DNA of 29,414 nucleotides, from positions 1 through 29,414 of IMG/VR virus record IMGVR_UViG_3300043469_001447. One strand, given 5' to 3'. Positions 4,798 through 28,834 of the stretch are shown here, in pieces; within the stretch, counting starts at the first letter, position 1, and each line of letters opens with the position of its first letter. The DNA is from a virus. The notes under the pieces were generated by a model. The model had not been told where the DNA came from. It ran no database searches and worked only from the letters and a program-made list of their open reading frames with translations. Both the position numbers and the translations under genes were made by a program.

Positions 4798-4830
4798 CCG
4801 CCCCCCCATTACAGGGGGCGGTTGCATTTA
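4798..4830 (-). promoter_or_regulatory. Gene-boundary box TAAATGCAACCG plus GC hairpin, copy B
   Basis: On the minus strand the box at 4830-4819 contains the stop codon of the giant gene. It overlaps and runs into an 8-bp all-GC stem (arms 4814-4821 and 4798-4805, 8-base loop). The hairpin ends about 15 bases before the portal ATG and has no T tract, so it is not a normal intrinsic terminator. It could limit read-through from the giant gene, be an RNA-processing site, or set portal translation. A 23-codon frame, starting MQPPP within the box, overlaps the portal start. Confidence 0.5.
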
Positions 4831-7800
4831 TCGCATGAACACATTCCGCGCTCTAGCTATCTGCGCCTTAGCCCGATCTCGCTCATTCTGAGTGATGGTG
4901 TCCACCGTCCGCTCTACCTGCTCGGGATTCATCACCTTGAGGCGGTCCACCATCGGGGTTAAACGCTCCTTGATCCGCTCGCCGGAGATCCGCACATAAT
5001 CATTATACTGCTCAGGCGTCATCACCGCGCCCCCTGGCAACTTGGTGGATTTTGCGGGCGTGGAAATAAACACGTTTTTATTCCGCAGCACCTCGCGCAA
5101 CGGGTCGTTGGTCTCATCCGAACCGAACCGGTCCAGCGGAGAACGCTTCACCGCCTCGCCCAGCACCTCCGTTTTGACCGAACCCGTCTGACGCAACCCA
5201 GGTATAACCTGGCCGACACGACCGCCCACGCCGTCCGAGTTGCGGGTTTCCGGCGAGGCCAGCCGGTCAACTTGCTTCACGAGGTTGGGAATAACCGCGC
5301 TGGTCGCCGTGTTGGCCAAGAAACCCTCGATCTTGTCGGGACTACTACTGCCCGAGGCAATGTCCATGAGGGTGCCGAGGCCGGAGAGCATCGAGGTTTC
5401 AAAGATCGTCTGCGGCAGCTTGAACATGGCGTTAAGGTACGGATTCTTGCCGGCCAACTCATCCTTTGATGTCTGGAACCGTTTGGCGTCCACCGCTTGA
5501 GCCACAGCGGCCAAAGGCAGCAACAGCGGGCTATCCTTGTATGAAATCCACTTGTTGCCCACCTTGAAGCTGAACGGTCTCCAGCCGGTCGCCTCAAGCT
5601 GCTGGTTCTTACGCCAGTCAGTCGAACCCTTGGCGGTGATGTCAAAGAACCGTTCTTTATTGTCGTCGTCGTCCCCCCCACCGAGACCGGCCATAGCGGC
5701 GATACCCACCATCGCCATACTGCCCGCAACCGCTTGGAAGTAGAGCCGTGCCCGCTCCTCTTGCGTGAACTCCTGCCTACCGTCGCCCTTCTCATTGAGC
5801 ATCCCGAACTTCGCCCGCACGGCACCGACCGGCGTAAAGTTCAACGACGTGTTAAACAAGTTGGTCGGCACGCGCAGGAACGGCAGGAAAATCTGCATCG
5901 CTGGCAGATCGTTGGTCACGCTGCGCAGGTTTCTGTAAACTGCGCCGGCAATACCCACAGGGTTTTGATTGAGCGTGCTTTCCCGTCCATACTGGGATGC
6001 ACGTTGCCCCACTTCTTCCGATTTCATGTTGGCCTCACGGTGGCCTTCAATCAGCTGCGAAACACGCAGCGCCTTATCCATCCCGGTCCAGCCCTCGGCC
6101 TTAGCCTGCTGCTCCCACTTAATGAACTGGTCGGGGGCAATCCCGAGCGATTCACGGATCTTGGAGTGCAATTCGGCCCCCTGGTACTGGCCTTCCAGAA
6201 TCTTCGCCGTCGCCACCCGAGCATAAGCCTCGCGGGCCGGATAGAAGAACACGGCATCAGCCGCACGCATGGCGCGGGAGACGTATTTCATGACTGCGGC
6301 GTGCTTTTGCAGCCCATAGGCCAAGGCAGACGGCAGGCGGACGAAGTCGCGGGCGTAATTAACCGACTCCAACACGTTGCCGGCCTCACCGGTCTTCCCC
6401 ACTTCGCCCATTTCGCGCAAGCTGCGACCCGTCGCCATGATCTCTTTGCCGTGCAACCAACCATCGTTGAACCCGCTCACCCACCCGGTCAACGCATGAC
6501 CAGCGTTTTTGGGGTTGGTCGCCATGAGCGTGCCAAGCTGGATCGTGGATAGGAACATGTTGCTCTGCGCGTTCGCCATTTGGGTCGTGAACCCCGATAG
6601 CAGGTTGGCGTACCACACCGACAATCCCACGTCGGCGGCGGTTAACCCCTTGACGATACGCATACCGTTCATCAGGTCGTACTCGGCACGCACACGGGCC
6701 AGCTCGTTCGGCGCGTTCTCCACCTTGTCGGCGAGGTCGGCGACGGTCTTCAACTGCTCGGCGGTCACACCGGGCAACTTCAACTCCTTCGCCACGGCTG
6801 GAATCAGGTCGGCGCGGGTGAGTGCCCCGAGGTTGTTCAGCGTCGAAACCTTGGCGATGGCGCTGATGATGCGCTTAACCTTGTTCGTCGAGTTCTCGAA
6901 CTTCTTCTTCAACTGGTCGAGCGCCTTGGTGCGGGCATCGGCGATGAACTGGCGCGAGGTGGCGGCGAGGTCGTCGGCCAGCCGTTGCGCGTCGGAACCG
7001 GTCAACCCGGCTTCATCCACAAGGGACTTGGCGAGGTCGTCGGAGGTCGCGTTGGTTTTGCTGACATGCTGCTTGGCCAGTTCGGCGATCTTGAGCCCCA
7101 ACGCCTCATGCGCGTCCTTAACGGCCCGCTCCAGCGTCTTGCGGCTGTACGGAGCTGCCCCCATGTTGGCCATTTCGGTGTCAATCGCCTCCATGATGGG
7201 CGAACCCTCACCGTACTTGCCGGCCAGATCTGCGCGGACGGCATCGAACACCTCCTTGTATTTCTCCTTGTTGCGCATGGCCTCGGTGAGCACTTCCAGC
7301 GCGGAAGGCGAGGAGTTCACCGCATTGCCATTACCCGAGTCAGGCAGGGCATCCTTCATGCGGGCCTTGAGTTCAGCCACCAAGCGGCTGGTAAACTCAG
7401 CCACCGGCGCCTGCTGCTTCGACACGCTCATACCTCCAACCAACTTGGCCAAGCGTTCTGCGGCCTGGTTGCGGTAGCGTTCCCACAGGGGAATGCCCAG
7501 GTTGATCCGGTTAATCACGTCGGCCTTGTTGGCGATCATGCGTTCAACCGCCTCACGGGTGGCCTTATTGAGGTCAGCGACCGTCTCATCCATGACGCCG
7601 GTTCCGTCCTCACCCAAAATCTGCTCCTGCCGATTGCGCACATTCTTGATGTACTCCATCGGCGCGGCGATGCGCTGATCCTTGTAGATATGCTGGTGCA
7701 TCGAGATTTGCTGGCCGGCCTCCGTCGAGTTCACGTCGCGGGAGGCGGCGGCGAGCGCGTCCATCCGGTCCATGATTGCCTGCTTGTCAGTCGGCGCGGC

Positions 7801-10800
7801 CTGGCGAAATGCCTCCATCTCGCGGGCCATCAGTTCACCGATGACACCGATACGGGTATCACCCCGGACGCCCGAGTTACGGTCTAGGGCCAGCTTGCGG
7901 GCCTCGGCTTCGCCCTTGTCGGCGATCAACTGGCGGGCCTCGGCGGCAACGTCCGCCTGCTTGCGCACCTCGTAGGGGTCACGCTCAACCGGCACGCCAC
8001 GAGCACGCAGCGAGTCTTGGAACTTGGAGTAGGTCGGCTCTGCCTCAGTGGCGGGGGTGCCAAAAAGTTGACTTTGTGTATTATCTGATGCAGGGTTTTT
8101 GCGGAATACCTCCCGTCGAGGGCCAGAAACCGTAGAGGCGGGGGGTGTCGGGCTGGGTGCGTTCTGGCGTAGCCCTTCACCTTTGTCTTGGATGTCGCCG
8201 CGAACCCAATCGACGCGAAGATGCGCTTGGCGACCTCCATCCGTGGTGAGCGGGAAATGAGTAATCAGGCTACCATCAAAGGCGCGTTGCTCTTCAACCT
8301 TCCCATCCGGTCGAATGATGACGGCATGATTCACGCCACCATCGTATTTACGCACATAAATTCGAGTTCCATCTTGCACATCAACAAGGCGGACTTGGGC
8401 GTTTCTGAGCGTTTCGACTACGCGAGGAATCCATGCTGCTTTGCCTTTGTGGATCGTATTGGAATTTCCATCCCGGATCAGGTGCCATACACGGGTGGCG
8501 ATGCTTCCCTTGTCGGCAACCTTCATGTCTATACCGCTGCCGTCGGCTGCGACGACGGTTTCTGGCCATGACCGAACTTCTTCGGCGGCGCTCTTAACGA
8601 TTTCAGCGTTGAGCTTTGAAGTGTCGAGCAGGGGCTTGTCCGCACGGTCATTAACCATCGTAGCGTCAGCTTCACGCAGGCTTTGGCCTTCGGCAGGCGT
8701 GCCTAGCGGGCCGGTGTCACCTGGGCTCTGCTGGCTCGCCCCCTTGCGCTTGCCTTTCTTCTGCATCAACTCGGCGCGGACTTTCTCGTGCTCGGCACGC
8801 ACGCGCTCAAGCTCGGCCCCCTTGGTGAAGGGCTTGGCAAGTTCGGCCTCGATCTGCTTCAAGCCTTCGGCGGAACGCTGGGCTTGGATGTTGGCCTCTT
8901 CGATCTTGGCCTCGAACCCGGCGAGGTAGTTGTCGAGACGTTGGACGAAGCCGGTATCGCTGATGGTGTCGTCGCCGATGTAATCCGTAACGGATTGAGG
9001 GCGCTGGTTTGAATTGCGTGGCTTGGCTCCAATTTCAACACGCGGGCCATTTTTTGCCATCTCATCGACAGCAACCAAAAACTCATATCCTCGGTAATAG
9101 CCGATGCTCGACTTGCGCTCACCGCTCATTTTTGCCGATTGAATCGCTTTGGCGACGGCTCCCGATATGCCCTTTTTCCCATCGGAAAGCGGCTTATCAA
9201 AGAAGTCTGTCATCACCCACGGCTCCGGCACCGGCTGGCGGGCGTCGATCTTGGTTTGAGCATCGGCCACGACAGCATCCCGGCGCTGTGGAGCCTCGCG
9301 CAGCCACTTGGCGCGGCCCTGCATCTCGTATTTGCTCTGCTTGTGGGCGCGTTCTTGCAGTTCCAGCTTGGAACGCTGGTTGCGCAGTTCGATTTCCTGC
9401 TGGATAAGCGGGTCGCCGGAGGCTGCGGCCTTCATGTCGGAGGCGTTGGCGGCTTCGCCTGACACGTCCTCAATGCGGCGGGTGGTGCGGTCGGCCTTGC
9501 GGAAACCTTCGATGCCGCGCGCCTTGTGCTCCAAGAGCTGCCACATGCGGGTATCGTAGGTTTGCTTGGTGGCGTAGCGGTTGACGACGACCTCGAAGCC
9601 CTCGGGGTCGCGGGCGTAAAGTTCGTTACCCTGGCGGATGATGCGGCCCTCGCGCTGCTCCAAGTCGGACGGACGCCAAGGGGCGTCGAGGTGGTGCAGG
9701 GCCACGAGGCGCTTTTGGACGTTGGTTCCAGCCCCCAGCTTGGGTGTGGACCCGAACAGGATGCGCATTTCGCCCCGGTTCATCTGGTCGAACAACTTCT
9801 GCTTGGCCAGCGGGGTCTTGTAATCGTGGATGAAAGCAATCTCGGCGGCGGGGATGCCAGCGGCGATCAGCTTGGCCTTCATGTCGTCGTAAACCGAAAA
9901 CGAGGAAGAATCTGCAAGTAGTTCGTCCATGCTCACGGCTCCAGACTCGGCTTCGCCCTCGGTGCCGGCCTCGCCCTCGGCGGCGGGGGCTTCGGCGGCG
10001 GCTTGTTCTTGGGACTCAAGCCATGCTCCGAGCGCCTCGGCGACTTGCTCCTCGGTGGGGCGCAGCTTTGTGATGTTTTCGCGAAGCACGTTCAAGTCTG
10101 TCCGAGATAACACGTCCGTAGCGCGGGCAATGGCCTCCGACTTGGTGGACAGGCCACCCTTAACTTTGACGCCAGAACTGCGCTCGGACACGCCCCATGT
10201 TCCAGAGGTCGGGTCTTTTGAGACGAAGAACTCGATGTCTGGCGCAGCGTCGAACTTAACGGGTTTCGCGTCCTCGATGGCGGCTAGTTCGCCGTTGGCC
10301 GTCTTGATGAAATAGAAGTCCTTGAGCTTTTCCTTCACCTTTTTGGTCGCGTCGCCACGGGCGGAGGCGGGTACGGAGAGGTCACAGAAAACAAGCTGGG
10401 TGCCACGGTCGGCGCTCCACTTTTTGTATTGGGCAACAATTTCAGCGACGGAGCGGTTGATCTTACTCTCGGGCCGGTCCGGATAGCTGGGGTTGATCAG
10501 GCGCATGTCCAAGCCAGCCTTGCGGGCGTCGTTGGTGAGCTTGAGCATGTTATCCTTCTTCGGGTCGTCGGGCATGTTATCGACCCGGTAAAGGATGGTG
10601 CCTGGCGGGTAGCTGACGACGGGGTCGCCCTCGGCATCGTAAACCGGGCTTCCGTCCTCGCCCATTTTCTGCACTTCCACGCCAAAGTAAGCCTCTTGGT
10701 CGGCGGTGCGGTCGGAAACGTAGTTGTTGGGCTTGCCGCCTGCCAGCTTGGGCACGGGGAACCGCTCGCCGCGTGCCTGCGACTGCGCTTCCAGATCGGC

Positions 10801-13800
10801 CATGGTGATAACGTCCGAAACGGTGCGGTAAATGGATGAGATTTCGCCGACGTTCTGGAACTGGGCAAGGCGGGTGGCCATGCGGTAGCCGGTGCCGGTG
10901 GGGTCCACCTCGTAAACCTGCTTCACGTCGCCAAATACCTTTACCCAGGCGTCGAGCGTCTTGAGCCCCATGTCTTTCAACACGTCGGGCTGCAAATACC
11001 GCTGCATGGTGAACATCTCCACGAGCGAGTTGCTAATTGGCGTTCCGGTAGCGAACACGAGCGGGGCTTTTCCGCCGAACCGCTTGTGCATGTATTGGGT
11101 TTTCAGGTAGAGGTCGAACGCCTTGGCGCTACCTGCTGGGTCGCCTAGACCGGCCACGCGCTGCATTTGCGTGGTGTAAAACAGGTTCTTGAACTCGTGC
11201 GCCTCGTCCACGAACAAGCCGTCGATCCCCAGCTCCTCAAACGTGGCCACTGAATCGCGTGCGCCAACGCCATCGGACAGCTTCTTCAGCTTCTCCTCTA
11301 TTTTTTCCTTGGTCTTTTCGGCCTGGGCGACGGCACGGGACCGGCGCTTACCCTCGGCGGCTTTCATGGCCTCGATGGTCTCGGAAATCTCCGCGATCAT
11401 CTCGGTGAGGATGCCTTTCTCGATCTCGGGTGACACACCAATTTTCTTAAACTGGCTGTGGCCGATGATAACGGCGTCGTATTCGCCGGTAAGGATCTTG
11501 GCGAAGAGGGTTTGCCGGTTCTCTTTGTCGAAGTCGCTAGGGCTGGTGTAAAGGACGTTGGCGTTGGGGTAGAGCTTCACGAACTCGTCCGACCACTGCT
11601 TGGTAAGGTGATTAGGGACGACGAACAGAGGCTTACGCACGCGGCCCATGCGGCGCATTTCCATGAAGGCGGCGACGCCCGCGAAGGTCTTGCCCGCGCC
11701 GACGACGTGATCGTAAAGGGCGCGGCGCTCGGTGATGGTGCGCCAAACGACGTTCATCTGATGCTGGCGGAGCTTCACCAAGGGGCTCGCGCCGGGCAGA
11801 GTCAGGTGCGAACCGTCATACTTCGGGTCAACGTAGTTGTTGGCGGTGTCGTTGTAGATGCGGGCGAGGCGTTCGCGGCGGTCCTCGTTGTCCCAAATCC
11901 AGTCGGCCCACTTCTGTTTGATTTCCTCGGCCTTGATGGTGGCGAGCGCGGTCAGTTTCTCGTTTACCACGAGCTTATCGTCGGAGGTCTTGTCGTAAAC
12001 GATGGTCGGGCGAGCGTTGAGCGCATCAGAAAACAGCTTCTCGAAGCCCACGGTGCGCCCGTCAATCGACACGCCCCAAGTCTCATTGGTGGCGACGTTG
12101 GAGCTGCCCATGTTAAACAGCCAGCCACCATCTGACTTGCGGTAAACCACGGCGTCGGGGGTGAGCCCGGTGATGTCGCTGACGAAGCGGGAAACGTCGC
12201 TGGCGGGCACCCACGGCGCACCCACGGGCGCGGAAATGTCCACGGCGGGGATGTCGGCGGGAATAACGGCGCGCAGGGCTTCGACGTTGGACGCCCACGC
12301 ATCGCCCTCGCGCTGCTGTGCGGCCTCGGCTTGCTTGAACTTCTGGCGCACGTTGCCGGAAAGGTATTGATCGCGGCTCTCGTAGCCTCCCGTGGGGGTC
12401 TTGAAGATGAGCCCGTCCAGTTCGCGCAGGATGTCGGCCTCGGGGATGCCGGAAAGCTCCTGCATGTAGGCAAGATCCACGTCGCCGCGCTGGTTCAGGG
12501 CGACGGCCAGCGCTTCCTTGGCGGTGCCGACCTTGGTAATCTCGCGGTAGGGCTGGTTCACGCGCTTGGTGAAGATGGCGGCTTTCTTGGCGGAGGGCTC
12601 GCGCTTGGTGCCGCCTTGTTTTTTCGCCACGGGTGCCGAAACGCCAGCATCGTAGTCCGATTCCAAGCCAAGGATGCGGAACGCCTCGGGGTCATTGAAG
12701 AAAGCGCGACGGTTTACAGGGCGGTTGAGGTGCCCGAACTCCTTTACAAACGTGTCGTAGGCTTGGTTCAGCCCCTCGCGCAGGGCGTCAAGCTGGGCCT
12801 CATTGCTCTGGGTGTTGAACTCGGCTTTTACGAGGGCGTTGAGCGCATCGCGCACGGCGATCATGCCCTTGATGCGGCCCAAGTCGGCCTCTTTCACGCC
12901 TGCCACTGCCTCGGCCTGCTGCTCCATGTTGTAGTCCTGGGCGCGGCGCATGAGCTTGCCGTCCTTGGCGACGTAGTAAGCACCGACGCGGACGCCAGCG
13001 GGCACACCTCCGCCAGCGGGGGCGGGCATGGGCTCGGGCAAGGTAAGGCGGTCGGTGACAGCGGGAGCGACGTGCTGATAGACGTTCTCGGGCAGGCGGG
13101 CGACGGCTGCATCCAAGTCGGCTCCGAGGTCTTGGCCTTTGCCGCGAGGTTCAAGCGTGGCTTCGTCGCGACCGGCATACATGGAGCCGCCGAGCGTCAT
13201 GGTGCCGAGCATCATTTCGGGCCGGGTGGCGAGCCATGCGTTGACGGGGATGGGCTTGCCGGTGGCGGGGTCGGCCACGGAGGAGAGGTTTACCCAATCC
13301 TGATTTGCGGTCGCCTGCTCGCCGGGGGCCAGCTTGCGGAAGAAAACGATGTCGGTCGTTACCTCGGTGTTGGCGTTCTGCTTGAAGGCGGTGTTGGGCA
13401 GGCGAATTGCTCCCAAGAACTCCGCCGACTTGGCGATGAACTGACGGGCGGAGGGGTCTTTGGCGTCTAGGAAGTAGTGGGAAACGACGTAAGAGGCGAC
13501 GCCACCCGGACGCAGCAAGGCAAGCTGCTTGGCGATAAAGTAATTGTGGATGCTGTGCTTGGCCTCTTCCTTGAATGCCTTGTCAGTGAGGGTTTGGTTG
13601 CCAAAGGGCGGGTTGCCCACGGAGCCGTCAAAGGTATCGCGGGCAAGGTCGGACTCTTGGAATCCGGCGTTGTGGATACGGGCCTCGGGATAGATGGCCT
13701 GGGCAATCTGCGCGGTGATGGGATCGCGCTCGATGCCGAGATACGACGTGCCGGAGCGCATCGAATCGGGCATCATGCCGATGAAGTTACCGATACCTAC

Positions 13801-16800
13801 GCCGCCCTCGACCATCTTGCCGCCACGGAAGCCAAAGCGGGCCATGGCAGCGTAAATGCCGCGAGTGATAACGGTCGGGCTGGTGTAGTGGGCATCCTGC
13901 ACCGACCGGCGGGCGGCGGCGTATTCCTCGGGAGTGAGGAGGTTGGCCAGCTCGGAGGAGTAGTCTTTACTCTTGGTATCGAAACGGCTCTTGAGACCAC
14001 CCCAACCGACGTAGCGCACAAGCAAGGATTGCTCGGCAACGGTGGCGGGTCGCTTTTCGGCGATGATCTGCTTGATCGTGCGAATGGCCGCGAGGTTGTC
14101 GCGGAACTTGGTCGTCAAACCGCCCTCGCCGATTCGGTCGGCTGGCGTGATGCGATAGTTTCCTGTCGCTGGCGTGGCAGCGGCTACTTCTTGGCTAGGT
14201 TGAGATTCGGGCCTCCGTAGAGTTCCCACATCTCCATCGACGCGAGGTGTGTCGCCCCGTCCTTCTCCGCCTGCGTCTCCGCGTTGAACGCTTGGTTCTC
14301 CGCTTCCTTGAGTTTCGGCAACAGGCTCCCGTCCTCCAGCCATGACTGAACCTGCTTCGGGTCGCTGTTCGCCCACCCGTAGAGTACGTTCCTCCCTTTG
14401 GGGCCGAGGTGCGCCAGTAGGTTCTTCTCCGCCTGCGCGCTCATTACTTGGTTGCTGAGAAGTCGGCTCATTGGGATTGGTGGTAGATTGGGTTGGGTTG
14501 GTGTTTCCGTCAAGTTTGGCGTAAGCATCGGCAAAGGTGCCCGAGTCATCGAACTCAGCGAAGGCACCGATGGACCGAGCAAGGGAATCGGAGAACGGCT
14601 TGAGGCCAGGAAAGTTCTCGACGATGAATGCGGCGAGGGCCGGCTTGCTGCGGACATCGGGGTGTTCACGCACGAGCAACGCGACAAACTTGTTGGCGAC
14701 CTCAACCTTGGCCGGGTTAAAACGGGTGCCGTAAGGATTGGGGGCGGGAGCGGCGGGCGTACCAAGAAGCTCGTCGCCGAGGGCTTGGAGTTCGGCGCTG
14801 ATCTTGCTGGGCTTGGCAGCGACCTTGGCAGGCTTCGGCGGGGTGATGGTCGTTGCCGTGGCACCTTCGCCGGCTGGCTTGGTGGTCACGACCGGCGCGG
14901 GCTTACCCGCCATCATCTCGTTGGCGATGCGGCGAGCTTCCTCGATGGTCTTAATGTTGGTGCGGACTGCTCCAAATGACTCGTTGGCGTCGGTATCAAC
15001 CGGGATGACGTTGAAATTTCCATCCGTGTTTACGAAAATGCGGGCCTCGGTTCCATTCTCGCCCTTGATGACTTCAAGCGGAGCGGCAGCGCCGGACTTC
15101 TGCGCGGCACCACGCTTGGCATAAACAAAAATGGATTCAGCCACCGACTTCGGGTAGCCTAATCCAGTGAAGGCATTCACATCACCTAGCCACGATTTAC
15201 CTAGTGCTGATTCGCCTGCGATTCGCCCATTTACAATATCCATCTGGAGATCAGTGGTCTCCTCGCGGACCGCCGAAGTGATGGTATAAATAGCGTTATG
15301 ATGGGTATTTTTGAGTGAGTTTTTAACGTCATCACGGGACAAAACCACGTCACGAATGATAGAGGCAACCGAGGCGTCTTTACCGATGCTCTGACGGATC
15401 TTATCGAAACGACTTACTGGGGCCGAGTCCGGTTTTGCGGCGGGCTTCGGCGCTAGATCGGGGTATGCGTTGAAGTGCCCCAGCGCACGGGCCATGGTCT
15501 CGGTCAATTCGCCGGTAGCGAGCGCGTTTTCGACAAGGTTTCGGTGAATGTCTCGGTCGCGAGCGTCCATTACCGGAACACGCTGCACACCAACTTTACG
15601 CTCTGCCCGATTTTGCATGAACCCGTCTTGCGTCATCAGGTGGGGCGGCGTGGTGTCGTTGTAGGCGTCAACCTGCCCTGGTAGAGTATATTCGAGGGCG
15701 TCGAGGATGCGCTTGTCGAGTTCGGCGGTGGTCAGTTTCCCGTCGCCGATCCACTTATTTAGCATCGAGCGAACCTGATTTAGAAAATCGGTCAGCTTTT
15801 CGAGGAGCTTCTTGGGCATCTGCTCGGTATCACCACGGACCACGCGGGCGAACTGCATGGCGACCCACTCGGAGCGGGCTTTTTTATCGTCGATTAACTC
15901 GCGTCCCTTGCGGTTGTTGGGGTCGTAGGCTTCCGCTGCCTTCTGGCGCTGCACCTCATCGAGCTTACGCCATTCCTTGTTGGTGAACTCTTCGCCCAGG
16001 GCGAACTTTTCGGCAAAATGCCCCATCTCATGCACGAAAGCGTTCACGATGGCCTCACCCTGAGTCTTGTCGCGGTTCAGGTAGAGGGTATTGCTGTGCT
16101 GGTCGAAGGCGCCGGCGCTGTCCGGCGTGCGCTGGCCAAGCTCGGCGTGCGCATCCCAGTCGGCTTGTGATAGGGAGTGAACCTCCATGCCCTCAAAAGC
16201 GGCAGGGTTCATCTTGTGCAGCCGGCCCACAAAGTCCTGTACGAACCTTCCGGCGCGGTCGGTGGGTTTTACCGTGGAGCTTTCGAGCACGAACTTGACG
16301 GCGGCGGCTGGCTTGGCTGTGCCACGGGTAAGCACCTTTGACGTGCTCACTTTCTTCGTCTTTTTGGACATGTCAGGCGCGACCTGTTCAGGTTTAGCCG
16401 AATTTTTAACAGGTGCGGGAGCGGTCGGCGCGGCAGTCGGCTTGGCTTTGCTCTCCTTCCAGTCAGCATACGCCTTTTTCGATGCCGTGATACCGGAGGG
16501 CAGTTTAACCCCTGTCACCTTGGCGAACACTTTACGGCTTACGGGATTGTTCGGATAAAGCGATTGGGGTAACTCGCGCCCATCGTCATTGATTTCTCCA
16601 TGCAGGCGAGCGCCCATACCAGTAGCGACGTGACCGGCCATGTCCGGCGCCAACGCGGTGTAGTGCTGGGCGACCTCGGTAGGCGTGGAAATGGACCCTG
16701 CCCCCTGCGCAGGCTCGGGAGTTGTGGGCGTGATCGTGGCCTGTGGTTGGTCACTCTCCGACACGGGAGGCTGGGAAGTGGGTGCCTGCTGGCTGTTATC

Positions 16801-19107
16801 CTCTGGCGAGGATACCGCCTGTCCGGCGTTCGGTTTGGCAACAGGCAAATTGGCTGGAGCCGCCTCTTGCGACGGCTCCGAAATCGGTTTGTCCGCTGAT
16901 ACCGGCGCGGCTGGGACATCCGAAGGAGTGGCAACGTCGGAAGGCATCGAACCTTCAACCTGATCTTTTGGAGAGAACTGCTCTGCCGATTGAGCTACGA
17001 CGTTAGAAATGGGAGCAGGGGTTTCGATGCCACCACCCGCCTCTTGATTGGCGGTAGGTTGCTCGGTGAGCGAGGCAACGCCCCCCTGCGTGGGTTGGGT
17101 CTCTGGCACCGAGCTGATAGGCTCGGAAGTGGTTTCGGGGGCGACGGCGGCGGGCGCGGCCTGTCCTGGTGCGATCACGCGGGTCTTACCCATGTCGGGC
17201 ACGAAGTCCTCGGGCAGTTGGGAAACGGCCTCATTCAAGCCCCGCGCTGCCACATGGATCGTGCGCCCCGTGGCGTCGGTAAACTGGAAAGCCTCGGCGG
17301 GCTGACCGGAAACGGGGTCGGCGGTGATGTCGGGAGCCGGTGCCTCTGGAGCAGGTCCAGCGGCGGCGGGACCGGTGGGAGCGGGAGGAAGAGTCGGCTT
17401 CGATCCGGTCAGCACGTTGCCACCGCCACCCATCACGCCACCAACAACCATGCCAGCGGCGGCGGCCTCGGCCACGCCTTCATTCCATGGCTTTCCCGTG
17501 GCTAAGTTCTGCGCCACCTGCTCCTGCGCCGATTGCGGCAACTCTTCAAGCACACCCTCGGAGAATGCACCACCCAGCACGCGCTTGAGTAGGCCATGCT
17601 TCGCCACGGTGAGCTGGCCTTTAACCAGCATCTCGTCCAGATCCCCGAGGCCCATCGCGTTAGCCGCTTTGTTTCCAGCCAAGCCGATGACCGACGTACC
17701 CACGCCGGAGGCGATACCAAGGCCAATTTGCCCAACCGTCAGGTCGCCGGTCTCTTGGCGGGTCTGCTCGATCTGCTGGCCTGCCGTGATTGCGCCCTCG
17801 CCGATACCAGCCGCCACCATTGCCGGGGTAATCTTGAGTCCGGTCTTGGTGAGCAAGTCGGCCACACGACCAAGCGCAGCCGGTGCCAACTGGAGCGCCT
17901 TTCTACCAATTGCAGCGCCACCCAGCATCGAGGTGGACGACTCGGCAATGGAATCCATGATAACCGATGGGCGTTCAGCCAACGCCTTTACCGTAGGAAT
18001 AAACCCCTTGGTGTTGGCGACCTCCTGCTTTGCGGCCTGCAACTCCTCAGATTGGAAACTGCTGATAAACTCCTTCGACGCTTTGGCGTCGTACCCGGTG
18101 ACATCATTAAGGACTTTGCCTGCATAACCGAGTGTCGGGATGTTGGCCAAGCCGACTGCGGCCTCACCAAGTCCAACAACACTATTGGCAACACCCAGGG
18201 GGATGTCGCGGGCAAGGTTGAGCGCGTTTTTGCCGACCTCGCCCCAAAAGGTCGGGTCGGTTTTCTCCACGCGGGCCTGACGCTCGGGGTCGAGCGTGGT
18301 AAAACCCTGCTGGATCTCGGCTCGAAGGCGTTCAGCGGTGACGGCATCGCCTGCGGCCTCTGCGTCCTTGAGCTGTTTGCGCAGCTTCACCAAGGCGGCG
18401 GGCGATACTGCGGCATTGGGTACGTACTCTTTGCCAGCCGGTGCGGCGGAGGGCGCGGCTTGGTCCACCGGTGCGGCTTGCTGCGGAGCTTGGGGCGCTT
18501 GGGCTGGACCTTGATTCACCATCGGGGCGATACCAAGGCGCATGGCCGAGAGCTGGCCCAACTGGTTTTCAGTGTCGGCGTGCGCAGAATCAATCTTCCC
18601 CATCTCATCGTTTACCCGCTGCCACTTCTCTTGGGCCAAGCGCGTAACCTTGTTGTAGTGCTCCTCCTGACGGGCGAGTTCTTCCTTGTCCTTGGGATCA
18701 TCGGACAGGCGAAGTTTATCCATCTGCTGCGAACCGGTGCCGCCATTCCACTTGGAAACCGGCTGCTTGGTGCGCTTGTCGATCTCGTAGGCGTGGACCG
18801 GCTGGCCGTTGGCATCGAGCGGGCCGGTCATGTTCGGCTCGAACAGGTCGGCTCCGTGGTCCTTAATTACCTTCGCTTGCTCGTTCTTTAGGTTTTCACG
18901 GTAGCGAGCTAGGTCCGCCTTGCGCTGGTTGAGCGACTGCATCGGCGCGTCGTACGGGTCAACATTGGCGTCCTTTATGGCCTGCTTTCTTGCGCGAGTG
19001 TCCTCTTGGTCCAGTGAGCGCAAACGGGCGGCGGTGGCCGGATCGTTCGGGTTGTAACCGTTTTGCTCGTCGCCGTTGCCTGTCAGGAAGGGATTGATGA
19101 ATGACAT
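4828..19107 (-). CDS. Giant polyvalent virion-type protein: metallopeptidase-like, N6-adenine methyltransferase, SNF2 helicase, ejection-like C-terminus
   Basis: One uninterrupted frame of 4759 residues, nearly half the window. Segments in order: charged helical N-terminus (1-280). Gly/Ala-rich membrane-active-looking helices (290-560), ending in the pattern EGVLEELPQSAQEQVAQN seen in phage ejection proteins. Pro/Ala-rich linkers (560-960). Zincin-like domain with HEMGH at 1026-1030 and a possible third ligand Glu at 1080. AT-richer module (about 1236-1330). Disordered linker (1546-1642) that hosts an overlapping gene. DarB-like methyltransferase with EGGVGIGNF (about 1767) and NPPF (1832-1835). 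Helicase with GAGKT (2470-2474), DEAH (2634-2637), ATGTP (about 2685) and QREGRIIRQGN (3151-3161). A possible PBECR-type nuclease fold (3492-3645). Long helical C-terminus with an LPD38-like region (about 4150-4700), including a hydrophobic stretch at 4461-4477 followed by Asp repeats. The start is supported by GGAG nine bases before ATG. Known DarB-like proteins are packaged and protect injected DNA from host restriction; Bcep22-type podophages carry a comparably giant protein. The role here is inferred. Confidence 0.9.
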   Translation of the reverse strand: MSFINPFLTGNGDEQNGYNPNDPATAARLRSLDQEDTRARKQAIKDANVDPYDAPMQSLNQRKADLARYRENLKNEQAKVIKDHGADLFEPNMTGPLDANGQPVHAYEIDKRTKQPVSKWNGGTGSQQMDKLRLSDDPKDKEELARQEEHYNKVTRLAQEKWQRVNDEMGKIDSAHADTENQLGQLSAMRLGIAPMVNQGPAQAPQAPQQAAPVDQAAPSAAPAGKEYVPNAAVSPAALVKLRKQLKDAEAAGDAVTAERLRAEIQQGFTTLDPERQARVEKTDPTFWGEVGKNALNLARDIPLGVANSVVGLGEAAVGLANIPTLGYAGKVLNDVTGYDAKASKEFISSFQSEELQAAKQEVANTKGFIPTVKALAERPSVIMDSIAESSTSMLGGAAIGRKALQLAPAALGRVADLLTKTGLKITPAMVAAGIGEGAITAGQQIEQTRQETGDLTVGQIGLGIASGVGTSVIGLAGNKAANAMGLGDLDEMLVKGQLTVAKHGLLKRVLGGAFSEGVLEELPQSAQEQVAQNLATGKPWNEGVAEAAAAGMVVGGVMGGGGNVLTGSKPTLPPAPTGPAAAGPAPEAPAPDITADPVSGQPAEAFQFTDATGRTIHVAARGLNEAVSQLPEDFVPDMGKTRVIAPGQAAPAAVAPETTSEPISSVPETQPTQGGVASLTEQPTANQEAGGGIETPAPISNVVAQSAEQFSPKDQVEGSMPSDVATPSDVPAAPVSADKPISEPSQEAAPANLPVAKPNAGQAVSSPEDNSQQAPTSQPPVSESDQPQATITPTTPEPAQGAGSISTPTEVAQHYTALAPDMAGHVATGMGARLHGEINDDGRELPQSLYPNNPVSRKVFAKVTGVKLPSGITASKKAYADWKESKAKPTAAPTAPAPVKNSAKPEQVAPDMSKKTKKVSTSKVLTRGTAKPAAAVKFVLESSTVKPTDRAGRFVQDFVGRLHKMNPAAFEGMEVHSLSQADWDAHAELGQRTPDSAGAFDQHSNTLYLNRDKTQGEAIVNAFVHEMGHFAEKFALGEEFTNKEWRKLDEVQRQKAAEAYDPNNRKGRELIDDKKARSEWVAMQFARVVRGDTEQMPKKLLEKLTDFLNQVRSMLNKWIGDGKLTTAELDKRILDALEYTLPGQVDAYNDTTPPHLMTQDGFMQNRAERKVGVQRVPVMDARDRDIHRNLVENALATGELTETMARALGHFNAYPDLAPKPAAKPDSAPVSRFDKIRQSIGKDASVASIIRDVVLSRDDVKNSLKNTHHNAIYTITSAVREETTDLQMDIVNGRIAGESALGKSWLGDVNAFTGLGYPKSVAESIFVYAKRGAAQKSGAAAPLEVIKGENGTEARIFVNTDGNFNVIPVDTDANESFGAVRTNIKTIEEARRIANEMMAGKPAPVVTTKPAGEGATATTITPPKPAKVAAKPSKISAELQALGDELLGTPAAPAPNPYGTRFNPAKVEVANKFVALLVREHPDVRSKPALAAFIVENFPGLKPFSDSLARSIGAFAEFDDSGTFADAYAKLDGNTNPTQSTTNPNEPTSQQPSNERAGGEEPTGAPRPQREERTLRVGEQRPEAGSVMAGGREPVAETQGSGEPSVQRGDAGGEGRGDTPRVDGDVGTLRRPESQPSQEVAAATPATGNYRITPADRIGEGGLTTKFRDNLAAIRTIKQIIAEKRPATVAEQSLLVRYVGWGGLKSRFDTKSKDYSSELANLLTPEEYAAARRSVQDAHYTSPTVITRGIYAAMARFGFRGGKMVEGGVGIGNFIGMMPDSMRSGTSYLGIERDPITAQIAQAIYPEARIHNAGFQESDLARDTFDGSVGNPPFGNQTLTDKAFKEEAKHSIHNYFIAKQLALLRPGGVASYVVSHYFLDAKDPSARQFIAKSAEFLGAIRLPNTAFKQNANTEVTTDIVFFRKLAPGEQATANQDWVNLSSVADPATGKPIPVNAWLATRPEMMLGTMTLGGSMYAGRDEATLEPRGKGQDLGADLDAAVARLPENVYQHVAPAVTDRLTLPEPMPAPAGGGVPAGVRVGAYYVAKDGKLMRRAQDYNMEQQAEAVAGVKEADLGRIKGMIAVRDALNALVKAEFNTQSNEAQLDALREGLNQAYDTFVKEFGHLNRPVNRRAFFNDPEAFRILGLESDYDAGVSAPVAKKQGGTKREPSAKKAAIFTKRVNQPYREITKVGTAKEALAVALNQRGDVDLAYMQELSGIPEADILRELDGLIFKTPTGGYESRDQYLSGNVRQKFKQAEAAQQREGDAWASNVEALRAVIPADIPAVDISAPVGAPWVPASDVSRFVSDITGLTPDAVVYRKSDGGWLFNMGSSNVATNETWGVSIDGRTVGFEKLFSDALNARPTIVYDKTSDDKLVVNEKLTALATIKAEEIKQKWADWIWDNEDRRERLARIYNDTANNYVDPKYDGSHLTLPGASPLVKLRQHQMNVVWRTITERRALYDHVVGAGKTFAGVAAFMEMRRMGRVRKPLFVVPNHLTKQWSDEFVKLYPNANVLYTSPSDFDKENRQTLFAKILTGEYDAVIIGHSQFKKIGVSPEIEKGILTEMIAEISETIEAMKAAEGKRRSRAVAQAEKTKEKIEEKLKKLSDGVGARDSVATFEELGIDGLFVDEAHEFKNLFYTTQMQRVAGLGDPAGSAKAFDLYLKTQYMHKRFGGKAPLVFATGTPISNSLVEMFTMQRYLQPDVLKDMGLKTLDAWVKVFGDVKQVYEVDPTGTGYRMATRLAQFQNVGEISSIYRTVSDVITMADLEAQSQARGERFPVPKLAGGKPNNYVSDRTADQEAYFGVEVQKMGEDGSPVYDAEGDPVVSYPPGTILYRVDNMPDDPKKDNMLKLTNDARKAGLDMRLINPSYPDRPESKINRSVAEIVAQYKKWSADRGTQLVFCDLSVPASARGDATKKVKEKLKDFYFIKTANGELAAIEDAKPVKFDAAPDIEFFVSKDPTSGTWGVSERSSGVKVKGGLSTKSEAIARATDVLSRTDLNVLRENITKLRPTEEQVAEALGAWLESQEQAAAEAPAAEGEAGTEGEAESGAVSMDELLADSSSFSVYDDMKAKLIAAGIPAAEIAFIHDYKTPLAKQKLFDQMNRGEMRILFGSTPKLGAGTNVQKRLVALHHLDAPWRPSDLEQREGRIIRQGNELYARDPEGFEVVVNRYATKQTYDTRMWQLLEHKARGIEGFRKADRTTRRIEDVSGEAANASDMKAAASGDPLIQQEIELRNQRSKLELQERAHKQSKYEMQGRAKWLREAPQRRDAVVADAQTKIDARQPVPEPWVMTDFFDKPLSDGKKGISGAVAKAIQSAKMSGERKSSIGYYRGYEFLVAVDEMAKNGPRVEIGAKPRNSNQRPQSVTDYIGDDTISDTGFVQRLDNYLAGFEAKIEEANIQAQRSAEGLKQIEAELAKPFTKGAELERVRAEHEKVRAELMQKKGKRKGASQQSPGDTGPLGTPAEGQSLREADATMVNDRADKPLLDTSKLNAEIVKSAAEEVRSWPETVVAADGSGIDMKVADKGSIATRVWHLIRDGNSNTIHKGKAAWIPRVVETLRNAQVRLVDVQDGTRIYVRKYDGGVNHAVIIRPDGKVEEQRAFDGSLITHFPLTTDGGRQAHLRVDWVRGDIQDKGEGLRQNAPSPTPPASTVSGPRREVFRKNPASDNTQSQLFGTPATEAEPTYSKFQDSLRARGVPVERDPYEVRKQADVAAEARQLIADKGEAEARKLALDRNSGVRGDTRIGVIGELMAREMEAFRQAAPTDKQAIMDRMDALAAASRDVNSTEAGQQISMHQHIYKDQRIAAPMEYIKNVRNRQEQILGEDGTGVMDETVADLNKATREAVERMIANKADVINRINLGIPLWERYRNQAAERLAKLVGGMSVSKQQAPVAEFTSRLVAELKARMKDALPDSGNGNAVNSSPSALEVLTEAMRNKEKYKEVFDAVRADLAGKYGEGSPIMEAIDTEMANMGAAPYSRKTLERAVKDAHEALGLKIAELAKQHVSKTNATSDDLAKSLVDEAGLTGSDAQRLADDLAATSRQFIADARTKALDQLKKKFENSTNKVKRIISAIAKVSTLNNLGALTRADLIPAVAKELKLPGVTAEQLKTVADLADKVENAPNELARVRAEYDLMNGMRIVKGLTAADVGLSVWYANLLSGFTTQMANAQSNMFLSTIQLGTLMATNPKNAGHALTGWVSGFNDGWLHGKEIMATGRSLREMGEVGKTGEAGNVLESVNYARDFVRLPSALAYGLQKHAAVMKYVSRAMRAADAVFFYPAREAYARVATAKILEGQYQGAELHSKIRESLGIAPDQFIKWEQQAKAEGWTGMDKALRVSQLIEGHREANMKSEEVGQRASQYGRESTLNQNPVGIAGAVYRNLRSVTNDLPAMQIFLPFLRVPTNLFNTSLNFTPVGAVRAKFGMLNEKGDGRQEFTQEERARLYFQAVAGSMAMVGIAAMAGLGGGDDDDNKERFFDITAKGSTDWRKNQQLEATGWRPFSFKVGNKWISYKDSPLLLPLAAVAQAVDAKRFQTSKDELAGKNPYLNAMFKLPQTIFETSMLSGLGTLMDIASGSSSPDKIEGFLANTATSAVIPNLVKQVDRLASPETRNSDGVGGRVGQVIPGLRQTGSVKTEVLGEAVKRSPLDRFGSDETNDPLREVLRNKNVFISTPAKSTKLPGGAVMTPEQYNDYVRISGERIKERLTPMVDRLKVMNPEQVERTVDTITQNERDRAKAQIARARNVFMR
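14184..14471 (-). CDS. Candidate overprinted gene inside the giant gene (+1 frame)
   Basis: The frame one base downstream of the giant frame encodes a 95-residue protein of balanced composition. It reads like a folded, helical protein (for example SAQAEKNLLAHLGPKGRNVL and MWELYGGPNLNLAKK), with no low-complexity bias. The same frame further upstream (to 14864) is a Pro/Ser/Arg-rich shadow, so the change in character occurs at the candidate ATG at 14471; a second ATG at 14444 is possible. Over the same interval the giant frame becomes Gly/Glu/Arg/Pro/Gln-rich linker (residues 1546-1642), as expected where a second frame carries the selection. The start context AATCCCA-ATG-AGC resembles the starts at 56, 2376 and 25517; there is no Shine-Dalgarno sequence. 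The function is unknown. Confidence 0.5.
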   Translation of the reverse strand: MSRLLSNQVMSAQAEKNLLAHLGPKGRNVLYGWANSDPKQVQSWLEDGSLLPKLKEAENQAFNAETQAEKDGATHLASMEMWELYGGPNLNLAKK

Positions 19108-20887: not shown

Positions 20888-21202
20888 ATGCCCTACATGG
20901 CCAAAAAGCGCGGAACCGATGACGTTTACCTTTGGTCTATCCCTAAGTATGGTCGCGCTTTCATGAGCGATAAAGAGTTAAAGGAGTTTTGGCGCAAAGA
21001 GGCGAAACCGTATTACACAAACGGAACCGCCCAGCCCGAACCCACCCGGCTTTTTGAAAAGCACGAAATCAATGAGATTGCGCGTGTTTATCCTGATGCT
21101 CAAATCGTTGCCTGCGATAATCTTGCCGTTGTAATTGCCAAGGATTTAGGCGAAGTGGCTGGCGTGATTTTTAGGCCGTGGCGTCTGTTCAAGAAGTCCT
21201 AG
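20888..21202 (+). CDS. Isolated plus-strand hypothetical gene, moron candidate
   Basis: The protein has 104 residues, or 101 if started at the second ATG (20897). It is basic at both ends, with a soluble middle (WSIPKYGRAFMSDKELKEFW, then EINEIARVYPDAQIVACDNL). It is the only plus-strand gene within the late block and converges with the terminase; the two stop codons share the palindrome CTAG at 21199-21202. Its base composition is visibly more AT-rich than the flanking phage genes, which fits a later acquisition. I do not recognise the family, and no convincing promoter is seen upstream. Coding is supported by balanced amino-acid composition. Confidence 0.6.
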   Translation: MPYMAKKRGTDDVYLWSIPKYGRAFMSDKELKEFWRKEAKPYYTNGTAQPEPTRLFEKHEINEIARVYPDAQIVACDNLAVVIAKDLGEVAGVIFRPWRLFKKS

Positions 21203-22956
21203 CCGACCGTCTGCCAACCATCCTGCGAGCGCCCGTCCTCGCGGAACCAGGAACGCCCCCGGTATTCCGTCGCCGAGCCGATGTTGTAGAGCGCCATACC
21301 CGCCGCCATCACATGATCGTCGTGCTTTCCACTCATCGCCTCGCATCCACCCTGGGCATTGACGATGAACGTGCGGAACTCCGACCAGACCTCGGGAAAC
21401 CGAACGTCTAGCTCCTCCTTGCGGATCAGCGGCACCATCGCGTCAATAACCCACTTCTTCGTCAGCTTGTCCGTGTTCCAACCGTAGGCACCCAAAACCT
21501 CCTCATCGCTCATCTTCCGCTTGGTCGCCGCCGACAATGCCCGCCGGCGAAACATGGGGATCTTGTATTTCTGGAGCTGCTTGACGACGTGGATACCCGC
21601 CTGCCCGTTTATTTCAGGGATCGTCATGCACCGGCCATAGTAAATCGACATCGCCGCGAACACCTCCGCGAGCACGTCCGTATCGACTTGGCTCCGGTGC
21701 ATCGCCACCAGCGCCGGCCTCATGTAATCGCCGCTCTCCGCCACATACCCGGCACGCCAGATGTGGGCCGCGTGGTAGTCGCGCTTCGCCGTTGCCCCCG
21801 TCTGCTGGTCCTCCCCCGTCATCGTGTCCAGAGAGCCGATATACTTGCACCCCACAATCGGATCTTCCTGGATAATCACGTCACCTCTTGGGTCAGGCAT
21901 CGGCGTGACACTCTTCTCGGTCTGAAAAATCAGGTTCACCCGCTGGCGCTTGTCATTCGTCTTCGCCTCCGCCTCCCCCGACTTGATGGAAGGAAGGTAA
22001 AACCTTGGGCTCGAACTGAGCAAAAAGCACTCCTCGTCATTGCTGGGCATCTCCTGCCGGAACTTACCCACGTCGCCCTCGTAGTCCGTATTGATGCAAT
22101 TCCGGCGCCAGTTCAGTTGCTCCAAGCTCACGCTGTAAAGTTGCTGCTCCTGCATCTCGTCATCGCTCAAGCTCTCCGCAAAACGCGCCCGCTCATCCGG
22201 GTTCGCAAACCGCCTCACGCTGTCATCGAACTCAAACCACGCCGCGAAAATCTTCTCCCACGCATTTTTGCCCGTCCATGTGCTGTGAAACCAGCCGGAC
22301 GCCCCCTTTGCCGTGCTCGTCGCAAACCCCAGGCTCACCGGGTACTCCTTCGCAAACGACCCCAACACCGCCGTCGTCGGATCTTTGCCCGTCGCCGTTG
22401 TGAAAAACGCCACCTCGTCCAAGTGCAAAACCTGCACCGTGCCCGACCTCCCCGCATTACTACTCCCCGCCGTCTCCTTCGAGTACGTCGAACCGTTCGG
22501 CAGCGCAATGTTGTCCGCCAAGTTCTGATCCTTCATCAGCGGCTTCAACCCGTCACTCCATGGAAACTGGTCAAGCTCCGCATAGCGCCGGAACATCTCA
22601 AACACCTTGTCCGAGGTCGCCTGCACGTCGCCCATAATCACCCCGTTCAAGCTCGGGTACTTCCTCATGTGGTGGTAAATCACCCCCTCCGCTATCGTGC
22701 TCGCCCCCTTCTGCCGTGGCTTCAAAATCATAATCAGGCACGGTATCCCCATCGCCTGACACTTCCGGTAATGCGCCAGCACCCGCACTTGCAGGCTGTT
22801 TATCGCCGGCACCGCCAGAATCGTCCCCTCCTTCGTCCTGATCTTCGCGTACTTCGTAAACCAGAACTCCGCGTCATACGTCATCGCCTTCAACAACGCC
22901 TTCGCGTCCTCACCGTTCAGGTGCGACAGGTCTAAAACTCCAGGCCCCCCGCTCAT
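21199..22956 (-). CDS. terL: Terminase large subunit (packaging ATPase and nuclease)
   Basis: The protein has 585 residues, a usual TerL length. The ATPase half has a Walker A-like KPRQKGAST (79-87) and Walker B VLHLDE with catalytic Asp-Glu at 180-181, followed by the coupling-type segment FATSTAKG (211-218). The nuclease half shows SLDTMTGED (acidic residue 377), a Glu at 448 in PEINGQAG, and KHDDHVMA with Asp 546/547, matching the three acidic positions of the RNase H-like terminase nuclease. The protein cuts concatemeric DNA and pumps it through the portal. The start ATG overlaps the RusA stop (ATGA), so the two are translationally coupled. The stop overlaps that of the convergent plus-strand gene. 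Confidence 0.93.
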   Translation of the reverse strand: MSGGPGVLDLSHLNGEDAKALLKAMTYDAEFWFTKYAKIRTKEGTILAVPAINSLQVRVLAHYRKCQAMGIPCLIMILKPRQKGASTIAEGVIYHHMRKYPSLNGVIMGDVQATSDKVFEMFRRYAELDQFPWSDGLKPLMKDQNLADNIALPNGSTYSKETAGSSNAGRSGTVQVLHLDEVAFFTTATGKDPTTAVLGSFAKEYPVSLGFATSTAKGASGWFHSTWTGKNAWEKIFAAWFEFDDSVRRFANPDERARFAESLSDDEMQEQQLYSVSLEQLNWRRNCINTDYEGDVGKFRQEMPSNDEECFLLSSSPRFYLPSIKSGEAEAKTNDKRQRVNLIFQTEKSVTPMPDPRGDVIIQEDPIVGCKYIGSLDTMTGEDQQTGATAKRDYHAAHIWRAGYVAESGDYMRPALVAMHRSQVDTDVLAEVFAAMSIYYGRCMTIPEINGQAGIHVVKQLQKYKIPMFRRRALSAATKRKMSDEEVLGAYGWNTDKLTKKWVIDAMVPLIRKEELDVRFPEVWSEFRTFIVNAQGGCEAMSGKHDDHVMAAGMALYNIGSATEYRGRSWFREDGRSQDGWQTVG

Positions 22957-23504
22957 CCAATCACCTCCACCTCAAGCCGCTCCTCACCCGCCCAACACCA
23001 ACGCTTGCGAATCACACCGTCCGAAACGCACGAATCAGATTCCCACAACGAATCCAGAATCGCCTTGTCAATGTTGTCACGGTCCGGCTTCGCCCGGTGC
23101 GGCCTCCCCTCCATCGCCGTCTTCTTCTTCTTCGGCCAACTCTCCGGCATCGCAATGTACGCCGTCCAATTCACCTCATGCGGCGCTTTACTCATCTGCT
23201 CCGGCGCTATCTCCCGCGCCTTGTCCGCCCACGCACGATAGCGCACCACCACCGGCCTCTTCGCCCACTTGTCACGCTGCGTCATTCGCGGCTTTCCCAT
23301 CGGCGCACCTGGTATCACGAACTTGCACGCTCCCCCCTGTGACACATCTATATCACACCCCACCTCCTTCACCTCTGCCACCGACTCGGGCTTTTTGGCA
23401 CTCGGCGTCTTCGGCATCCCCACACTGCCCAGCCCTCCCAGAATACCCGCGTTCATCCTCTTAAACGCCTCACTCGCCTGCGGAAAATTCAAATCACGAC
23501 TCAT
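22953..23504 (-). CDS. rusA: RusA-type Holliday junction resolvase
   Basis: The protein has 183 residues; E. coli RusA has about 120, and the extra part is an N-terminal extension of some 60 residues. The conserved core begins at FVIPGAPMGKPRMTQRDKW (62-80). It continues with the RYRAWAD helix and MPESWPKKKK, then KPDRDNIDKAILDSL (139-153), which holds the paired catalytic Asp residues (141 and 143). Further Asp residues at 157 and 162 may supply the third metal ligand. RusA cuts four-way junctions; beside a terminase it is thought to clear branched concatemers before packaging. It overlaps the terminase start by 4 bases. The upstream region is A/T-rich with no clear ribosome site. Confidence 0.9.
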   Translation of the reverse strand: MSRDLNFPQASEAFKRMNAGILGGLGSVGMPKTPSAKKPESVAEVKEVGCDIDVSQGGACKFVIPGAPMGKPRMTQRDKWAKRPVVVRYRAWADKAREIAPEQMSKAPHEVNWTAYIAMPESWPKKKKTAMEGRPHRAKPDRDNIDKAILDSLWESDSCVSDGVIRKRWCWAGEERLEVEVIG

Positions 23505-28790: not shown

Positions 28791-28800
28791 AGCGAGGCCA

Positions 28801-28834
28801 ACTATGCACACGGCACCAATTAAAGCAATGCTTT
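28801..28834 (-). promoter_or_regulatory. Candidate promoter with dyad over the -35, upstream of 28790
   Basis: Minus-strand TTGCTT (28828-28823), a 16-base spacer and CATAGT (28806-28801) lie 10 bases before the ATG, the same geometry as at 26017. A dyad AAAGCA/TGCTTT (28822-28827 and 28829-28834) overlaps the -35. The hexamers are imperfect. Confidence 0.35.

Follow-up and report, generated by a model that had tools for sequence, protein, structure and literature searches.

Phages and plasmids widely use polyvalent DarB-like proteins as weapons against restriction, and these proteins have so far been described by their domains only. The module of LPD36, methyltransferase and SNF2 domains occurs both in phages and in conjugative elements (Iyer et al. 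2017, PMC5512222), and the nested gene described here shares this distribution. This module is packaged or transferred, and its activity is believed to be directed at the entering DNA (PMC5512222). DarB of phage P1 is a component of the head (PMC5512222), and the giant protein of the Bcep22-like phage JC1 is a virion protein, for which 51 unique peptides were detected (PMC9144972). In the freely readable literature we came across no account of a gene nested inside a DarB-like or polyvalent gene, and PMC5512222 yielded no mention of TnpV, of an overlap or of an alternative frame.

Two other known systems are close to this locus in different ways. In Rz1-in-Rz spanins and other overprinted phage genes, a complete small gene likewise lies in the other frame of a larger gene. 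The genes and functions are different here; the larger frame is a disordered linker with noise-like codon use, and the nested gene is apparently the primary one. TnpV (Pfam PF14198) is carried by Tn4451-type transposons and related integrative elements of Firmicutes, and it resembles the nested family in its comparable length, its helical pattern and its carriage on mobile elements. However, TnpV is a separate gene in serine-recombinase transposons, whereas the ORF studied here is nested in a giant phage gene. A role of TnpV in excision has been postulated only (PMC3158075).

The giant gene and the ORF nested in it

The window, which is the whole stretch of DNA analysed, has 29,414 bases and comes from an IMG/VR virus record. 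Its features are collected in Table 1. The matches of the neighbouring genes to portal, terminase, resolvase and primase-like families are consistent with a partial tailed-phage genome. The largest gene of the window is one ORF that runs over all its codons with no interruption. Its domain matches were all over the cut-off (Eco57I, 3.3e-8; ResIII, 4.4e-7; SNF2-rel_dom, 5.5e-6; Helicase_C, 5.8e-5), and they give the DarB-like arrangement, an adenine methyltransferase and then an SF2/SNF2 helicase in one very long protein. Genes called "DarB-like antirestriction" in Erwinia, Klebsiella, Ochrobactrum and other phages share about 43% identity with this gene. The name LPD36 for one of its domains was taken from PMC5512222.

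Table 1. Positions of the features in the window.
Feature	Position	Strand	Size or basis
Portal protein	2741-4783	-	family match
DarB-like polyvalent host gene	4828..19107	-	4759 aa (4759 codons)
SNF2/ResIII-Helicase_C ATPase part of host gene	9628..11778	-	domain matches
Start of LPD36-like and adenine methyltransferase module, NYRITP...	13420..14160	-	Eco57I methylase match, residues 1814-1896
Nested +1-frame gene, MSRLLSNQVMSAQAEKNLL...YGGPNLNLAKK	14184..14471, stop included (14184-14186)	-	95 aa; family profile match, AlphaFold model
Host-frame reading across the overlap	14187..14472	-	low-complexity Gly/Glu/Arg/Pro linker; own conservation not strong
Second in-frame ATG (codon 10), possible alternative start	14442..14444	-	alignment supports it less
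ATG start codon of nested gene	14469..14471	-	matches family start (profile position 1)
Terminase large subunit	21199-22956	-	family match
RusA-like resolvase	22953-23504	-	family match
Primase-like protein	27366-28811	-	family match

The nested ORF lies in the +1 frame of the host gene, immediately before the LPD36-methyltransferase-SNF2 module, and it is present exactly where an earlier note on this DNA had placed it. That note had described the host frame at this point as a Gly/Glu/Arg/Pro-rich linker preceding the methyltransferase, and the alternative frame further upstream as rich in Pro, Ser and Arg. Both descriptions agree with our host-frame reading and translation. The host frame in the overlap reads NEPTSQQPSNERAGGEEPTG...RRPESQPSQEV, and about 25 bases separate the end of the linker from NYRITP, where the methyltransferase module starts. 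Family-wide, the host linker is rich in Gly, Ala and Arg. Cysteine is almost absent from both frames of the overlap in 127 loci, with 0.0% of the small-frame residues and none listed for the host frame.

The length of the ORF by itself is compatible with chance, and its 95 codons were kept open in 35% of 2000 host-synonymous randomisations and in 2.4% of codon shuffles. The 95-aa protein alone gave no useful match in PHROGs, in Pfam or in a scan of viral contigs. A tblastn search of phages with this protein returned Mycobacterium AAA-ATPases at a best E of 0.9, which were rejected as chance. The small gene was recognisable only once relatives of the giant gene were compared. Against a profile of its family (family B, below) that was built without the window, the ORF scored 56.8 bits with residues 1-88 of 95 aligned, while the best randomised scores with the same profile were 14.4 (2000 host-synonymous) and 8.8 (2000 codon shuffles), and the host-frame reading of the overlap did not match it. 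Because of this conservation, and not because of its open length, the ORF of the window exceeds chance.

AlphaFold predicted an all-helical product for the window's ORF (pLDDT 92, pTM 0.81). Foldseek searches with models of both families, A and B, found no structural match (best E 2.0-5.9). Matches to WRAP-T propellers, obtained in a sequence search of solved structures, were rejected, as they covered only 18 residues.

Homologues and selection in the small frame

Two viral relatives (L002 and L003), whose methyltransferase is about 61% identical to that of the window, have +1 ORFs at the identical place, and their products align with the product of the window. In a survey of 80 viral loci of IMG/VR, which was anchored on the methyltransferase and not on the small ORF, a homologous ORF was found in 78 loci, always in the +1 frame and never in another one; a divergent homologue (L175) was recognised later and brought this to 79 of 80. 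The window belongs to family B, with 35 members in this survey. Family A occurs in the same frame in phages of Erwinia, Klebsiella, Pseudomonas, Vibrio, Ochrobactrum, Agrobacterium and Sinorhizobium and in one cyanobacterial phage, and its consensus is MNLxNWxxQAxxHWKE..P..Y..L...G.L..AL..AAE.T..E...LE..G....EAWEM.RE.YLFPP.E. The two families are probably related: hhalign gave a probability of 72% and an E of 3.3e-5 over 61 columns, and the four-helix pattern, the site and the frame are alike. Scans with the families added 86 further matches (66 viral and 20 genome loci), most of them nested in the +1 frame within an uninterrupted giant ORF.

The nested gene is missing from darB of phage P1, which begins near the module, and from several gut contigs with the same module, where other sequence precedes it. 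The search of 369 gammaproteobacterial genomes returned solely the already known Pseudidiomarina copy, described below. In the Bacteroides phage BKO1-TP3 (L197:2654-2914) the same site before the module is occupied by an unrelated 87-aa +1 ORF, which may be a nested gene that arose independently.

The TnpV model was matched by 35 of 53 family-A members (best E 2.9e-7), while the member of the window did not match it even at E 0.1. The curated cut-off of this model is 27 bits; the Stean member reached 20.9 bits, and the best family-A member may pass it. Through family A, the nested family appears to be distantly related to TnpV. PHROG 938, named "endolysin", was matched by 35 of 60 members of the nested family at profile positions of about 2084-2173. 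This identity was rejected, because the match is an artefact of orf33 of Sinorhizobium phage PBC5 (L012/L017/L040), in which a one-base shift joins the N-terminal half of the giant to the +1 frame, and it carries no information on lysis. We take the shift as a sequencing error or a mutation.

Where two frames overlap in +1, position 1 of each host codon serves as the wobble position of the small frame. For 27 disjoint pairs of family A, the substitution rates at host positions 1/2/3 were.211/.116/.108 in the overlap,.349/.321/.494 upstream and.132/.096/.356 just downstream. For 13 pairs of family B, which includes the window, they were.290/.169/.151 in the overlap versus.120/.089/.361 downstream. 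Over these 40 disjoint pairs the host wobble is the slowest position within the overlap, and the fast-evolving position passes from the host frame to the small one. The amino-acid identity over the same DNA in 39 disjoint pairs was 0.80 in the small frame and 0.69 in the host frame, and the small frame was higher in 37 of the 39. It means that, at the level of the family, the small frame is under stronger purifying selection than the host frame. These rates describe the family, since the nearest relative of the window, at the 61% given above for the methyltransferase protein, is not near enough for a rate of its own, and the window was scored by the profile and the randomisations instead.

An SD-like motif precedes the small ATG or GTG in 83 of 93 non-redundant loci, compared with 439 of 3935 control ATGs (11%) elsewhere in the same frame. 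Some of the starts in this count were picked with the SD as a criterion, and another subset was picked by alignment alone, nearly all with an SD. The signal is a strong AAGGAGG or AAGGAG in Bcep22-like phages. Unlike nearly all other members, the window (CAATCTACCACCAATCCCA-ATG) and its two nearest relatives, L002 and L003, are without a Shine-Dalgarno sequence.

On these sequence comparisons, the nested ORF of the window is almost certainly a genuine, unannotated protein-coding gene. The earlier note had proposed that selection acts on the +1 frame and that nothing is required of the host frame except to remain open. The codon-position rates, which show constraint on the small frame, are largely in line with this. 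Its own check against the gene, a search for missing homologues and for constraint on the giant frame only, found homologues at 78-79 of 80 loci and constraint on the small frame. The gene is very likely to be anciently conserved, and this reading as a whole, together with the role as a partner of the module that is discussed below, would be the best explanation of the locus.

Age of the two frames and occurrence in plasmids

Codon usage was scored against the preferences of each giant gene itself. The mean log relative synonymous usage was +0.167 for the small frame, -0.282 for the host frame in the overlap, +0.299 for the host frame downstream and -0.211 for the +1 frame downstream. By this measure the small frame resembles a gene, and the host frame in the overlap resembles a reading out of frame. 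The small frame scored above the host frame in 114 of 127 loci (0.015 versus -0.336 in the window), and such usage tracks present selection as well as age.

Copies that are not nested were found in a few loci. One of them, from Pseudidiomarina (L095:2974-3762), is fused to a membrane protein and lies near a McrB-like ATPase; another (L098:2899-3321) adjoins a type I HsdM gene. The host-frame linker is still readable in L084 and L098. The non-nested L084, L087 and L098 resemble remnants of broken giants, and for this reason they argue only weakly for a free-standing form. Apart from TnpV, L095 is the sole clear free-standing form.

Because of the codon usage and the free-standing distant relatives, we consider it likely that the small frame is the primary and older one, and that the linker of the giant was overprinted on the small gene. 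The direction of overprinting in the earlier note, with the small gene arising inside the giant, is probably wrong. Overlapping genes as such are known, and the family, its breadth and the reversed direction of overprinting are, as far as can be told, new.

The nested gene is also present in plasmids. A conjugative Salmonella plasmid (strain SA20060086, L202:2229-2510) carries a family-B +1 ORF of 34.2 bits in the 5' part of the gene for the SNF2-related protein WP_015062163.1, and plasmid pl3WSM5005 of Paraburkholderia sprentiae (L200:2139-2444) carries one of 40.3 bits at the same place. In the latter, the NCBI annotation lists the nested gene as hypothetical protein WP_063828885.1 and has the methyltransferase begin only after it. 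The methyltransferase frame of this plasmid is open across the nested gene, and its annotated long gene may be truncated.

In a Campylobacter jejuni plasmid, an SNF2-related gene contains in its N-terminal part a 159-aa +1 ORF (L199:2007-2483) with a strong SD, AAGGAG. The match of this ORF to the profile is weak; in DNA of 29% GC, the chance of such an open stretch is P ~0.0005. A prophage of Helicobacter gave a similar case, and the open stretches in the AT-rich cases are 143-166 codons long (P ~0.0005). The Campylobacter region is also present in the records of the 81-176 plasmid, about 200 plasmids have near-identical DNA here, and no separate gene is annotated there. Because the homologues sit alike in conjugative plasmids, the nested gene is tied to the methyltransferase-SNF2 module and not to the virion.

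Possible role of the small protein and other explanations

The small protein may be a partner or regulator of the LPD36-methyltransferase-SNF2 module. We prefer this role tentatively, on the basis of co-occurrence: a dedicated partner is suggested because the small gene accompanies the module in phages as well as in conjugative plasmids. The earlier note had guessed at a small partner or regulator translated from the mRNA of the giant, which was a fair proposal. The giant ORF would have gained its disordered linker by reading through an older small gene in a different frame. Ribosomes would initiate internally on the mRNA of the giant, so the small protein would be made together with the giant and possibly in excess. 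As a dedicated partner it could bind the module so that, within the cell that makes it, the module stays inactive or soluble; alternatively, it could be a cofactor of the module on the entering DNA. Since the module is packaged or transferred and presumably acts on entering DNA, an inhibitor or solubiliser made together with it, or a later cofactor, would be the simplest role.

The fuller scenario is somewhat more speculative. A family older than the giants would have spread with the LPD36-methyltransferase-SNF2 module among the phages and the conjugative plasmids of Proteobacteria and Campylobacterota, almost always in the +1 frame of the module's gene; the linker of the giant would be a by-product of read-through, and the small protein an obligatory partner made by internal initiation.

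Two other roles for the protein are unlikely, to about the same degree. It could be a virion-assembly factor, a chaperone or scaffold for packing the giant into the capsid or ejecting it, and this would suit the giant in JC1 virions (PMC9144972), DarB in the P1 head (PMC5512222) and the fact that most members are phage-borne; against it, members at the same frame and place occur in conjugative plasmids, which have no capsid. The protein could also act on its own against host defences or in host takeover, for instance by inhibiting type I restriction, and have no more than the mRNA in common with the giant. The host gene is an anti-restriction module, and the two non-nested copies beside HsdM and near the McrB-like ATPase would fit with this, but each of these neighbourhoods is a single case, the net charge of the family, -5 on average and -1 in the window's member, is not negative enough for a mimic of DNA, and the PADLOC defence-related models gave nothing above noise for the nested family.

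It is very improbable that the small domain has no start of its own and is made by programmed +1 frameshifting as the end of a truncated giant. The one-base difference of PBC5 does fuse the small domain, in frame, to the part of the giant that lies upstream, and the +1 frame of the window is also open well upstream of the small ORF. However, PBC5 is only one case, from an old record, an ATG or GTG with an SD is conserved at the first residue of the family, and many members have a +1 stop 2-7 codons before the start, which leaves hardly any room to shift. A chance open frame in a GC-rich low-complexity linker, with no gene, might be suspected from the many randomisations that stayed open and from the window protein that alone had no database match, but the homologues at the same site, the shifted codon periodicity, the randomisation test, the SD enrichment and the long frames in AT-rich DNA make it next to impossible. 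Constraint on an RNA or DNA element of the linker, as the reduced host-synonymous change might suggest, can be dismissed just as firmly, since the changes are relocated to the wobble position of the small frame and not uniformly reduced, and the small-frame proteins still align at divergences where the DNA fails to.

If most DarB-like genes carry a second and more constrained gene, a component of the module has been missed in the annotations covered here. This would include cultured phages (Bcep22-like phages, PEp14, SopranoGao and Itty13) and plasmids like that of C. jejuni 81-176. It also appears to be a clear case in which the large gene, and not the small one, is the overprinted newcomer.
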